A stretch of DNA of 32,238 bases from an uncultured bacterium (GTDB taxonomy: Bacteria > Bacillota > Clostridia > Oscillospirales > CAG-272). A program made the position numbers and the translations under genes. The notes beneath the pieces are model-generated. The model did no database searches. It saw only the letters and a list, made by a program, of their open reading frames with translations, and was not told where the DNA came from. Positions 13,476 through 18,530 of the stretch are shown piece after piece; the first letter of the stretch is position 1; each line of letters starts with the position of its first letter. The stretch lies in the NCBI GenBank assembly GCA_945920215.1, contig CAMEJM010000016.1, positions 1 through 32,238 of the forward strand, in the 5' to 3' direction.

Positions 13476-13545
13476 GAAAACAGACAGCGGAGAGCTGTCG
13501 GACAGAAAAGAATATCATTTTTTACATAAAAGGAGAAAACAAAAC

Positions 13546-14397
13546 ATGAAAAGATTTTTTTCCGCACTTTTGCTTGTCGCAGTGGTATCAGCAATGCTGT
13601 TTTCCTGCGGAGCAAAATTTAAAAAGACCGATGCCCCCACGATCATCACCCGTGAGGACGGTTCGGGTACCCGCGGAGCATTTACCGAGTTGTTCGGAAT
13701 CGAGAATATGCTTTCCACTGCCATTACCAACAACTCTACCGGCGTGGTGATGACAACCGTGGCAAGCGATGTCAACGCCATCGGTTACATTTCCCTCGGT
13801 TCTCTGAACGACACCGTGAAAGCCCTGAAAATTGACGGCGCAGACGCCACCGTGGCAAACATTAAGAACGGCACGTACAAGGTCAGCCGTCCGTTCAATA
13901 TTGCCTATAAGGAACTGAGCGCTCTCGGTCAGGATTTCCTGAACTTCATTCTCTCTTCCAATGGTCAGGCGGTTGTGGAAGAAAAGGGATACATCAAGGT
14001 GGACGACAAAGGCGCTTTCACCAGCACCAACCCCACCGGTACCCTCAAGATCTCCGGCTCCTCCTCCGTCACACCTGTCATGGAAAAACTGAAGGAGGCA
14101 TACCTTGCCATCAATCCTGCCGCTTCCATCGAGATCAACATGACCGACTCCTCCAGCGGGATGAAAGCCGTAGCCGACGGTACCTCTGAAATCGGTATGG
14201 CAAGCCGCGCGGTCAAGCAGAGCGAGCTGGATAAGGGACTGACCCCCGTAACCATCGCTACCGACGGCATCGCCGTGATCGTCAACCCCCAGAACCCCTT
14301 GGAGGGACTGACAAAAGAGGACGTCAAGCGCTTGTATACCGAAGCCAACCTGACGTGGGAGAGCCTCAGCGGCGCAACCTGGAAAGAAGAAAAGTAA
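13546..14397 (+). CDS. pstS: Phosphate-binding lipoprotein PstS, circularly permuted
   Basis: 283 aa. Signal peptide with lipobox LFSC (Cys21), so it is a lipid-anchored extracellular binding protein that hands phosphate to PstCA. The order of parts is unusual. Residues 31-150 hold what is normally the second half (REDGSGTR 36-43, NAIGYISLGS 77-86, KALKIDG, SRPFNIA, FILSSNGQAVVEEKGYI). Residues 166-283 hold what is normally the mature N-terminus (SGSSSVTPVM 170-179, SSSGMKA 202-208, IGMASRAVK, ATDGIAVIVN, then a final TW segment). All phosphate-binding loops are present exactly once, so this is a permutation and not a fragment. Start at 13546 by AAGGAG; the frame opens 24 codons earlier without support. 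First gene of the pst operon. Confidence 0.9.
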   Translation: MKRFFSALLLVAVVSAMLFSCGAKFKKTDAPTIITREDGSGTRGAFTELFGIENMLSTAITNNSTGVVMTTVASDVNAIGYISLGSLNDTVKALKIDGADATVANIKNGTYKVSRPFNIAYKELSALGQDFLNFILSSNGQAVVEEKGYIKVDDKGAFTSTNPTGTLKISGSSSVTPVMEKLKEAYLAINPAASIEINMTDSSSGMKAVADGTSEIGMASRAVKQSELDKGLTPVTIATDGIAVIVNPQNPLEGLTKEDVKRLYTEANLTWESLSGATWKEEK

Positions 14398-14465: not shown

Positions 14466-15365
14466 ATGAAGGAAGCAAGCGTCCGGGCGCCGCGCCCACA
14501 CCCGCCGCTGACCGCCGCGGCGGTCAGGGAACGGGTCATGCACATTGTATTTGCCGTGACGGCGTGCGCGTCGATTTTGGCAGTGGTACTCATTTGTCTG
14601 TTCCTGTTTGCCAGCGGTATTCCCACCATGCGGCAGATTGGCTTGTTCCGTTTCCTGTTCGGTCGGGTATGGAACCCGTCCGGCGAACAGTTCGGGATTT
14701 TTCCCATGATCATAGGAAGCCTGTACGTCACCGCGGGCGCCTTGCTCATCGGCGTGCCGGTAGGGCTTTTGTGCGCCGTGTTCATGGCACGGTTTTGCCC
14801 CGCGGGAATCTATCGGTTCCTCAAGCCCTGCGTGGATCTGCTCGCGGGAATCCCGTCGGTGGTATACGGCTTCTTCGGCTTGATGGTGATTGTCCCGATC
14901 ATTCGGAATACCCTCGGAGGTCCCGGCTCCTCCTGCCTTTCGGCGTCTGTGGTGCTGGGTATCATGATTCTGCCGACCGTCATCGGGCTTTCGGAAACCG
15001 CCCTGCGCGCGGTACCGGAGCAGTACTATGAGGGGAGCCTTGCACTGGGCGCCACCCATGAGAGAAGCGTGTTCCGCGTGGTGTTGCCCGCCGCAAAGTC
15101 GGGCGTGTTTGCGGGTATCATTCTCGGCGTGGGGCGTGCCATCGGCGAAACCATGGCGGTGGTGATGGTGGCGGGGAACTCCGCCGTCATACCGAACAGC
15201 ATTCTCGGTAGCGTGCGCACCATGACCGCCAACATCGTGGTGGAGATGGGCTACGCGGAGGGACTGCACCGTGAAGCACTGATTGCCACCGGGGTGGTGC
15301 TGTTCGTGTTTATCCTTCTGATCAACATCTGCTTCTCGCTGATGAAACGGAGGGCAAAAATATGA
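14466..15365 (+). CDS. pstC: Phosphate ABC transporter permease PstC
   Basis: 299 aa inner-membrane subunit of the high-affinity phosphate importer, with six membrane segments after a 25-residue cytoplasmic leader. Typical PstC features are FGIFPMIIGSLYVT, the periplasm-side GIPSVVYGFFGL, and the EAA-type coupling loop LSETALRAVPEQYYEGSLALGA (shown here in part), then GRAIGETMAVVMVAGN. It pairs with PstA, and the EAA loop contacts PstB. The ATG is 69 bp after pstS with a purine-rich AGAAAGG ahead of it. Its last codon overlaps the pstA start by 4 bp. Confidence 0.95.
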   Translation: MKEASVRAPRPHPPLTAAAVRERVMHIVFAVTACASILAVVLICLFLFASGIPTMRQIGLFRFLFGRVWNPSGEQFGIFPMIIGSLYVTAGALLIGVPVGLLCAVFMARFCPAGIYRFLKPCVDLLAGIPSVVYGFFGLMVIVPIIRNTLGGPGSSCLSASVVLGIMILPTVIGLSETALRAVPEQYYEGSLALGATHERSVFRVVLPAAKSGVFAGIILGVGRAIGETMAVVMVAGNSAVIPNSILGSVRTMTANIVVEMGYAEGLHREALIATGVVLFVFILLINICFSLMKRRAKI

Positions 15366-16234
15366 AAGAGAAACAGAAAACACCGCAGGCTACTGCTTCG
15401 TACTGCCTTCCGGCGCGTCAGCGCACAGAGGTGATTTTGCTCCGCGGTGCCGCGTATTTGGGCGCCGCCTTGACCTGTATCGTGCTGGCGAGTATCCTGA
15501 TTTATATTCTGATAAAGGGCGTGCCGCACATCAGACCCAGCCTTTTTTCGCCGCACTATACCAGCGAAAACGTTTCCTTGTTTCCCGCGCTGGTCAACAC
15601 CCTTACCATGACGGGGCTGACCCTCTTGATTGCGGTGCCGCTCGGAGTCGGGGCGGCGATTTACCTTGTAGAATACGCAAGCCGCAGCAATAAACTCATT
15701 CCCGTGATCCGCCTGACGACCGAAACCCTATCCGGCATTCCGTCTATCGTATTCGGTCTGTTCGGCTTTCTTCTGTTCGTCACCGCGTGCAAATGGGGGT
15801 ACTCCATGCTGGCAGGATCCCTGACGCTTGCCATGATGATACTGCCGCTGATCATCCGTTCCACCGAGGAGGCGCTGCGGGCGGTGCCCGATACTTACCG
15901 GGAAGGCAGCTTTGGTCTGGGGGCGGGGAAGTTGCGCACGGTGTTCCGCGTCGTGCTCCCCTCGGCGGTGCCGGGAATTCTGGCGGGCGTCATTCTTGCA
16001 ATCGGGCGCATCGTCGGCGAGACGGCGGCGCTGATCTACACGGCGGGCAGCGTGGCGCAGATCCCGAAGAATCTGCTCGGCTCCGGCAGAACGCTTGCCA
16101 TTCACATGTACGCTCTGTGGACGGAGGGGCTGAATACCGACGAGGCGTATGCCACCGCGGTAGTTCTGCTCGTTATCGTCACGCTTCTGAACCTGCTTTC
16201 CACCACTTTGGCAAAACGACTGCGGAGGGGATAA
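15362..16234 (+). CDS. pstA: Phosphate ABC transporter permease PstA
   Basis: 290 aa partner permease of PstC. Six membrane segments; [16 protein letters not shown], the coupling loop [17 protein letters not shown] and [16 protein letters not shown] are family-typical. ATGA overlap with pstC (15362-15365) implies translational coupling, and GGAGGG lies inside the pstC end. The stop is 1 nt before the pstB ATG. Nothing unusual in length or motifs. Confidence 0.95.
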
Positions 16235-16235
16235 T

Positions 16236-16985
16236 ATGGACAAATTTCAAATACAATCGCTGAACCTTTATTACGAACGCTTTCATGCGTTAAAAAATGT
16301 GTCTCTCGACATTCCGCAAAATCAGATCACCGCTTTCATCGGTCCCTCCGGCTGCGGAAAATCCACGCTTCTGAAAACCCTGAACCGCATGAACGATCTG
16401 GTGCAGGGCTGTCGCATCGAGGGAAAGGTGCTGTTGGACGGAGAGGATATCTATGACCGCATGGATCCCAATGTTCTGCGCCGCCGCGTGGGAATGGTGT
16501 TTCAGAAGCCGAATCCGTTCCCCATGAGCGTTTACGACAACGTCGCATACGGACCCCGCACGCACGGCGTGAAAGGGAAGGCGGAACTCGATGAAATCGT
16601 GGAAAAATCCCTGCGCGGCGCCGCCATTTGGGACGAACTCAAGGACAGACTCAAGAAATCCGCCCTCGGACTCTCCGGCGGGCAGCAGCAGCGCCTGTGT
16701 ATCGCCCGCGCGCTCGCGGTAGAGCCGGAGGTACTGCTCATGGATGAGCCGACAAGCGCCCTCGACCCGGTTTCCACGGGCAAAATCGAGGACCTTGCGC
16801 TGGAACTCAAAGAGAAGTATACCATTGTCATTGTGACCCATAATATGCAGCAGGCAACCCGCATTTCCGACCGTACCGCTTTCTTTTTGCTCGGCGAAGT
16901 GATTGAGTGCGGAGAGACCGAACAAATCTTCTCTCTGCCGCGGGACAAACGCACCGAGGACTATATTACCGGGCGCTTCGGATAA
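16236..16985 (+). CDS. pstB: Phosphate ABC transporter ATPase PstB
   Basis: 249 aa cytosolic ATPase that powers PstCA. Walker [10 protein letters not shown] (about 34-42), Q-loop in [14 protein letters not shown] signature [16 protein letters not shown], Walker [13 protein letters not shown] and the switch His in IVTHNMQQA. The NPFPMS and RISDRTAFF segments are PstB-specific within the ABC family. GGAGGGG precedes the start. The length is the usual 250. Confidence 0.97.
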
Positions 16986-17033
16986 TGGGGAGATGCCTGT
17001 GTTTTACGGCAACACGCCGTTATGGAGGGAAAA

Positions 17034-17684
17034 ATGAGAGCAAATTTCGACAAACAGCTGGAAGAGTTGAACCGTGAATTGACAGAAATGGGCGCCCGCT
17101 GTGAGGATGCCATCGCCGCCTCGGTGAAAGCCTTGCTCGGCGGCGGGGCGGAACTGGCGGCAAAGGCGGAGGAATACGAGCGCGAAATTGACCGCATGGA
17201 ACGCAGGATAGAGGATTTGTGTATGCGTCTGCTTCTCCAGCAGCAGCCGGTTGCCCACGATTTACGCACCATTTCCTCGGCATTGAAAATGATTACGGAT
17301 ATGGAGCGCATCGGCGACCAGGCGGCGGATATTGCGGAGCTGGTCGGCGTAGCCGAAATATCGAAGTATGAGGGCGCGGGGCACATCAACGAGATGGCGA
17401 CGGCGGCGATCCGCATGGTGACGGACAGCGTGCGGGCGTTCGTTGCCCGGGATCTCACGCTGGCACGCCGGGTGATTGAAGCAGACGATAACGTCGACAA
17501 TCTGTTCACACAGGTGAAAGGCGATTTGGTGAAGTATATCGTTGAGGCACCCGCGCGGGGAGAAGCCGCCATAGATATTCTCATGATAGCCAAGTACCTC
17601 GAACGCATCGCGGATCACGCGACCAATATTGCCGAGTGGGTGGAGTATTCCATCACCGGTATTCATTGTGAGGAGGCGGAGTAA
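17034..17684 (+). CDS. phoU: Phosphate transport regulator PhoU
   Basis: 216 aa all-helical protein built from two related three-helix halves, each with the metal-binding E/DxxxD type pattern (MERIGDQAADIAE near residue 90; LERIADHATNIAEWVEY near 190). PhoU binds PstB and the PhoR kinase and damps the Pho response and phosphate uptake when phosphate is ample. Start set at 17034, directly after GGAGGG; an ATG 12 bp earlier overlaps that site. Last gene of the pst operon: its stop codon lies in the loop of the terminator hairpin. No PhoR/PhoP pair adjoins the operon. Confidence 0.95.
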   Translation: MRANFDKQLEELNRELTEMGARCEDAIAASVKALLGGGAELAAKAEEYEREIDRMERRIEDLCMRLLLQQQPVAHDLRTISSALKMITDMERIGDQAADIAELVGVAEISKYEGAGHINEMATAAIRMVTDSVRAFVARDLTLARRVIEADDNVDNLFTQVKGDLVKYIVEAPARGEAAIDILMIAKYLERIADHATNIAEWVEYSITGIHCEEAE

Positions 17685-17740: not shown

Positions 17741-17769
17741 TTGACAAAAAGAAATTTGCGTGGTATGAT
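17741..17769 (+). promoter_or_regulatory. Promoter of the Mn riboswitch-mntP unit
   Basis: TTGACA (17741-17746), 17 bp, TATGAT (17764-17769). Transcription would start near 17776, immediately before the first riboswitch helix. Confidence 0.85.
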
Positions 17770-17777
17770 ACACCTAT

Positions 17778-17927
17778 CCGTGAGGGAGTAATTAGCGCAT
17801 TTTGCGTGGCAAGTCAACATCCTGACCCTTGGCGGTCTGGCTTGTCTTAAATAATGAGACTCATGTGCAGCCCCGCTGTACCTGTGTCGTATCGGTCAGG
17901 TGCAGGCTGCACCTGATTTATTTTTTT
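17778..17927 (+). promoter_or_regulatory. yybP-ykoY-type manganese riboswitch with transcriptional switch
   Basis: The leader before mntP has the marks of the yybP-ykoY class: GAGGGAGTAA near the 5' end, an AGTCAACATCCTGACC stretch, and CTTGTCTTAA before a closing helix P1 (CGTGAG 17779-17784 with CTCATG 17860-17865). Downstream are three mutually exclusive stems. Terminator: CAGGTGCAG (17897-17905) with CTGCACCTG (17907-17915), then ATTTA and T7. Antiterminator: CTGTACCTG (17876-17884) with the same CAGGTGCAG. Anti-antiterminator: GTGCAGC (17865-17871) with GCTGTAC (17875-17881). In this class Mn2+ binding turns expression on, so high Mn should favour the antiterminator. Confidence 0.88.
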
Positions 17928-17942
17928 GTGGCGAGGATTGAC

Positions 17943-18530
17943 ATGAGTATTTGGGAATTGATTTTGCTTGCCGTCGGGCTTTCCATGGACGCCTACGCGG
18001 TTTCCATCTGTAAGGGGCTTGCGCTCAAGAAAGTGAATTTCCCAAATATGCTGGTGGTCGGGCTGTGGTTCGGCGGTTTTCAGGCGCTGATGCCCATGCT
18101 CGGGTATCTGCTGGGGACCACCTTCGCGAAATACATTGAAAGCATTGACCATTGGATTGCTTTTATTCTCCTGCTGCTCATCGGCGGCAACATGATTCGC
18201 GAGGCGATTTTTGACCGCGGAGCGGAGGAGACGGGAGAAGCGGACGCTTCTCTCGCGCCGCTTTCCATGTTGATTCTGGCAGTCGCGACGAGCATTGACG
18301 CGCTCGCGGTCGGGATCACCTTTTCCACCCTCATTGCCGATATTCCGCACCTGATTTTCGCGGTGGCGTCCATCGGCGTCATCACCTGCGCGCTGTCCTG
18401 TGTCGGGGTCAAGCTCGGCACCCTGTTCGGCGCCCGCTTCAAGAGCAAGGCGGAGATCCTCGGCGGCGTGATTCTGGTACTGCTCGGCGTCAAAATCCTG
18501 TTGGAGCATTTGGGAGTGATCTCTTTCTGA
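17943..18530 (+). CDS. mntP: Manganese efflux pump MntP
   Basis: 195 aa, six membrane segments, two related halves. Each half holds the family motif: GLSMDAYAVSICKGLA with Asp16 and ATSIDALAVGITF with Asp119. In the E. coli protein (188 aa) the matching Asp16 and Asp118 are needed for Mn export. Start at 17943, with GCGAGG six bases upstream; the open frame begins earlier but runs back through the riboswitch, so that extension is not real. Expression is controlled by the riboswitch at 17778. It lowers cytosolic Mn2+ in excess. Confidence 0.95.
   Translation: MSIWELILLAVGLSMDAYAVSICKGLALKKVNFPNMLVVGLWFGGFQALMPMLGYLLGTTFAKYIESIDHWIAFILLLLIGGNMIREAIFDRGAEETGEADASLAPLSMLILAVATSIDALAVGITFSTLIADIPHLIFAVASIGVITCALSCVGVKLGTLFGARFKSKAEILGGVILVLLGVKILLEHLGVISF

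Follow-up and report, generated by a model that had tools for sequence, protein, structure and literature searches.

A circularly permuted PstS heads a pst operon in an uncultured bacterium of the Clostridia

The pstS gene of the window (the whole 32,238-nucleotide stretch of DNA analysed here) encodes a circular permutation of PstS, in which the second part of the canonical protein comes first and the first part comes last. Judging from profile matches and gene neighbourhood, its product in all likelihood serves a Pst phosphate importer as its phosphate-binding lipoprotein and belongs to a lineage of circularly permuted PstS proteins. For convenience, the first and second canonical parts are called segments A and B, so that the ordinary order is A-B and the order of the window protein is B-A. 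The features of the gene are as follows.

13531..13535, + strand: ribosome-binding site AGGAG of pstS, preceding the ATG (sequence)
13546..14397, + strand: permuted pstS, 283 residues plus stop (open reading frame, PF12849, TIGR02136)
13546..13608, + strand: signal peptide and lipobox LFSC, with Cys21 at 13606-13608 (by-eye reading)
13639..14001, + strand: segment B, second part of canonical PstS, N-terminal here, residues 32-152 (segment profile)
13651..13674, + strand: loop REDGSGTR, residues 36-43 (invariant positions in a 33-row alignment)
14002..14034, + strand: inter-segment linker, residues 153-163, an 11-residue gap between profile matches (segment profile)
14035..14367, + strand: segment A, first part of canonical PstS, C-terminal here, residues 164-274 (segment profile)
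14053..14082, + strand: loop SGSSSVTPVM, residues 170-179 (invariant positions in a 33-row alignment)

In the PF12849 search of the genome, segment B corresponds to profile positions 134-266 at 13639-13959 and segment A to profile positions 5-125 at 14023-14364. The window gene is labelled L208 in the locus set used for the segment profiles.

Swapped order of the PstS segments

Both segments of the PstS domain are recognised in the window protein by PF12849 and TIGR02136. The native protein matches PF12849 with 103.2 bits (cut-off 27) and TIGR02136 with 170.4 bits (cut-off 206.6), in each case as two swapped stretches, and a canonical-order end-to-end match is absent with both models. We typed by hand a rotated copy, consisting of residues 157-283 followed by residues 28-156. 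The rotated copy matches PF12849 in a single stretch (5-266/267) with 112.5 bits, and TIGR02136 in a single stretch (40-294/295) with 180.9 bits, still below the cut-off. An earlier note on this DNA had proposed that the halves of PstS are swapped, and the two swapped pieces bear this out; the rotated alignment it suggested as a check gives a single stretch and a higher score with both models, and the end-to-end alignment of the native order with ordinary PstS that it named as counter-evidence does not occur.

All five permuted proteins scored, including that of the window, fall below the TIGR02136 cut-off (one of them, L123, was supplied without its N-terminus). Since rotation adds only about 10 bits and leaves the window protein under the cut-off, the permutation is not the sole cause of the low score, and divergence adds to it. 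The permutation may nevertheless hide PstS from annotation: the permuted PstS encoded beside pstC, pstA, pstB, and phoU on the complete Treponema saccharophilum plasmid pTS2 (L276) is named merely 'substrate-binding domain-containing protein'.

REDGSGTR and SGSSSVTPVM, which we take to be phosphate-binding loops, each occur once in the 283 residues, as the earlier note had read them. Residues R36, E37, G39, S40, G41, and T42 in the region of the first loop and G171, S172, S174, P177, and M179 in the second are invariant in 33 permuted rows, as are S202, G205, D240, and G241. The signal peptide and the lipobox are likewise intact, with LFSC and Cys21 recognised by eye. The gene, which had seemed functional at first reading, indeed looks intact.

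We compare the window protein with 11 PDB sequences. Only 4H1X, 'Phosphate-binding protein pstS 2', aligns with the native protein in one piece (residues 31-274 with residues 11-264), thus sharing the permuted order across the whole chain, although it is not the closest sequence to the window protein. Three canonical proteins (4q8r, 4gd5, and 1twy) align as two pieces in swapped order; for each of the remaining seven, the best-matching stretch is positioned as in the A-B order. 4H1X matches a profile of permuted proteins (A1, built from 33 sequences, with three rows, G025, G029, and G036, from the window's order) as a single piece spanning residues 3-264 of its 265, with an E value of 2.4e-89. 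Canonical proteins of the TIGR02136 type (4q8r, 4gd5, 1twy, and the product of locus L166) resemble the window protein in segments, loops, and operon but have the A-B order; L166 reaches 282.3 bits with TIGR02136 in one stretch, whereas the window protein reaches its lower score in two. We presume that 4H1X is PstS2 of Streptococcus pneumoniae; no paper naming it was found in the open PMC literature.

A chimeric assembly, or the merging of two gene fragments, in the window's genome would also place B before A, and the assembly is in 33 contigs. However, the B-A order is present at all 80 of the best loci in the genome_contigs set, a figure that shows abundance and not share because the permuted query favours B-A loci. 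Isolates are among these loci (Eubacterium barkeri, Roseburia inulinivorans, Anaerotignum lactatifermentans, and Caldicoprobacter oshimai), and the same order is found on the complete plasmid pTS2 of the spirochaete Treponema saccharophilum and in the crystallised protein 4H1X. Together these refute an assembly fault, which we consider exceedingly improbable.

Operon context and function

The permuted pstS heads an operon of four further genes, each scoring above its curated NCBIfam cut-off, in agreement with the earlier observation that pst genes follow.

14466..15365, + strand: pstC (TIGR02138, 297 bits, cut-off 196.45)
15362..16234, + strand: pstA (TIGR00974, 288.1 bits, cut-off 193.45)
16236..16985, + strand: pstB (TIGR00972, 421.5 bits, cut-off 343.2)
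17022..17684, + strand: phoU (TIGR02135, 206.7 bits, cut-off 130.25)

This context is general among permuted genes. In the fetched stretches, 95 of 98 non-redundant permuted ORFs are accompanied on their strand by a pstC-like ORF, and 71 of the 98 show the exact order pstS-pstC-pstA-pstB-phoU. Of the three without a pstC-like neighbour, at least L146 sits on a stretch that is cut short. The window gene is the sole PF12849 gene found in its 98%-complete genome, which also has one PstC above the cut-off. A profile search of the genome gives no PHO4 match, and two Na/Pi cotransporter genes are present; phosphate uptake therefore need not rely on Pst.

The window protein would fold as a type II binding protein with the usual two lobes, bind phosphate between its lobes, be anchored through Cys21, and deliver phosphate to PstCA. 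Alternatively, it could bind another oxyanion or act as a receptor instead of the Pst binding protein. The noncommittal annotation of the pTS2 relative would fit such a role, but the pst context of 95 of the 98 ORFs and the invariance in 33 rows of the loops presumed to bind phosphate argue against it. The passages of PMC4913102 on pneumococcal Pst2, whose binding subunit is PstS2, can be taken either way, as they describe Pst2 as a phosphate transporter and report that its loss leaves the initial rate of phosphate uptake in low phosphate comparable to that of the parent. On balance, we regard another substrate or a receptor role as very unlikely and retain the assignment as the phosphate-binding lipoprotein of Pst.

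Distribution and origin of the permuted order

The earlier note had suggested that the swapped order may be a lineage trait and not unique to this genome. The best 80 loci and the surveys of phylum, order, and genus reject uniqueness and bear out the suggestion. With the window's own genome counted in both surveys, one-piece matches to A1 are found in at least 18 of the 398 phylum genomes (E below 1e-100) and in at least 48 of the 197 from the order; 46 of the 48 have an E value below 1e-78, and the other two are G492 and G531. These counts are lower bounds, since the candidates scored in each genome were limited to 6 and 12, respectively. G623, in which the two parts lie on two contigs, is left out of the order count. 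In the genus, 6 of 69 genomes have one-piece matches, namely the window's own and five others, whereas a PF12849 search, which is less sensitive than the A1 profile, gives no permuted copy in 24 other genomes of the genus. Permuted and ordinary PstS are both present in four genomes of the order survey (G486, G586, G617, and G637).

The short contigs of Leptolinea and Treponema MAGs that carry permuted PstS may be misbinned. Permuted PstS in one piece is also encoded by short 'Bacteriophage sp.' records that are unannotated and derive from human faeces (MT837530, MT837962, MT838145, MT838544, and MT837061); these records (H16-H20) are possibly bacterial DNA filed as phage. An Anaerotignum MAG (L076) has a tandem pair of permuted PstS genes, with frames from 3982 and 5133.

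To reconstruct the origin of the permuted order, we use quick, unrooted trees without bootstraps, in which the PstS segments are put in a common order and 4H1X is absent. E. coli PstS has the A-B order, as do 10 of the 11 PDB sequences compared, and A-B is therefore taken as the older state. In an 86-row PstS tree (minimum lengths of 98 residues for A and 105 for B; permuted rows thinned by identity from 94 to 38 and ordinary rows from 48 to 44), the B-A order needs one change. The 38 permuted rows lie on one side of a branch with an SH-aLRT support of 70, which is 98 for 37 of the 38 when the long-branched L014 is set aside.

A wider PstS tree of 116 rows (minimum lengths of 90 for A and 95 for B; permuted rows thinned from 124 to 47 and ordinary rows from 85 to 65; L011 removed for its very long branch) needs three changes when searched freely, and two divergent permuted rows, L213 and L239, group with canonical rows at a support of 93. 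When the 47 permuted rows are constrained together, the log-likelihood is 82.11 above that of the free quick tree, with a p-AU of 0.987, although a p-AU over 0.05 does not by itself prove a clade. The constrained tree scores higher, indicating that the free search had missed a better tree.

The permease gives an independent view, as its tree contains no PstS letters. In a PstC tree of 92 rows, thinned from 185, the 34 permuted-operon rows lie on one side of a branch with an SH-aLRT support of 94. The nearest PstC below 90% identity comes again from a permuted operon in all 115 permuted cases and from an ordinary one in 66 of 68 ordinary cases. The window gene groups with the other permuted rows in both the PstS and PstC trees. 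The PstS tree, the constrained test, and the PstC tree all point to a single origin and to inheritance with the permease; most likely, the permutation arose once and has been inherited jointly with PstC.

The permutation might instead have arisen more than once, for example separately in the group with the motif 'REQGSGT' (L239, L240, and L241, the last being the same gene as L213). This group is divergent, its linkers are 29-31 residues long (29 and 31 in L239 and L240), and its attachment to canonical rows at 93 accompanies the three changes of the free tree. However, holding all 47 permuted rows together gives a better score, the PstC beside the group falls inside the permuted PstC clade, whose tree needs one change, and the chains of the group start at the same point as the other permuted PstS. 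Several origins are therefore not favoured, and we judge them improbable.

In the classical route to a permutation, an in-frame tandem duplicate sheds its first and last parts. By this route, the permuted PstS would derive from an in-frame A-B-A-B tandem through loss of the leading A and the trailing B. A double PstS of this A-B-A-B form is encoded in a single frame in two genomes of one family.

L148, G322:C1:561000-568000: double PstS of 544 residues, upstream of pstC-pstA-pstB
L149, G341:C92:9000-16000: double PstS of 531 residues, upstream of pstC-pstA-pstB

Like the window gene, the double genes head a pst operon, and they contain the B-A order in their middle; unlike it, they comprise two full canonical copies in one frame and belong to another branch. 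The doubles show that the expected intermediate architecture exists. As direct ancestors they are unsupported, since in the PstS trees they branch elsewhere and not as sisters of the permuted clade; they serve as an example of the intermediate, not as a remnant of it.

Chain ends and the membrane anchor

In the comparison of the window protein with canonical 4q8r, the end of piece A falls at residue 113-115 of 4q8r and the start of piece B at residue 116-118. The two positions are adjacent, indicating that the new termini open one short loop. The permuted chain begins just ahead of the REDGSGTR strand and stops just before the same point, and the old chain ends are joined by a short linker. 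We surveyed the linker in 128 permuted ORFs, of which three lack the motif and were left unmeasured; it is 10-14 residues long in 117 of the 125 measured and 29-31 residues long in three.

From E. coli PstS, we take REDGSGTR to lie in the lobe opposite to the first. In the ordinary protein CpPstS, the N-terminal domain is described in PMC12421899 as residues 24-111 and 279-324, so that both chain ends lie in the first lobe. With the ordinary ends in one lobe and REDGSGTR in the other, the lipid anchor of the window protein is very probably carried by the REDGSGTR lobe instead of the one where ordinary PstS has both its ends.

The earlier note suggested that the permutation could alter the docking on PstCA. 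We compared PstC columns between permuted and ordinary operons (115 and 48 rows, excluding those of the two A-B-A-B operons and a set of distant ordinary ones chosen by hand). This exploratory comparison does not clearly point to a new docking surface. Nine columns are diagnostic, the sharpest being Y192 and E203 (ORF numbering). Both are presumably in a cytoplasmic loop, and nothing is therefore drawn from them on docking.

Taken together, these data allow a broader but tentative proposal, which we hold to be possible and rather doubtful as a whole: one old permutation would have moved the ends of PstS, and hence its membrane anchor, to the other lobe, and the permuted PstS and its PstC would have stayed together as a separately evolving pst operon that spread within Bacillota and into Spirochaetota, because the two are mutually adapted and are not swapped for their ordinary counterparts. 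A large permuted lineage, most likely of one origin, offers a natural experiment on the position of terminus and anchor versus docking on PstCA.

We found no paper on a permuted PstS in the open PMC literature, a scope that leaves subscription papers and structure-database remarks outside. Among the matches listed there, we found one ABC binding protein that is circularly permuted in nature, Tp0684 (TpMglB-2) from Treponema pallidum, and its authors propose the subscript 'c' for permuted binding proteins (Type Ic; PMC4990184). Like the window protein, Tp0684 is a naturally permuted ABC binding lipoprotein; unlike it, Tp0684 is of Type I and binds glucose, and its moved strands belong to the N lobe (PMC4990184).

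Downstream of the operon lies an MntP-like gene (17943-18530), which scores 125.2 bits, below the model cut-off of 214. Its leader (17760-17942) has no Rfam match; read by eye, it contains a GGGAGTAA stretch as well as a hairpin with a T run after it.
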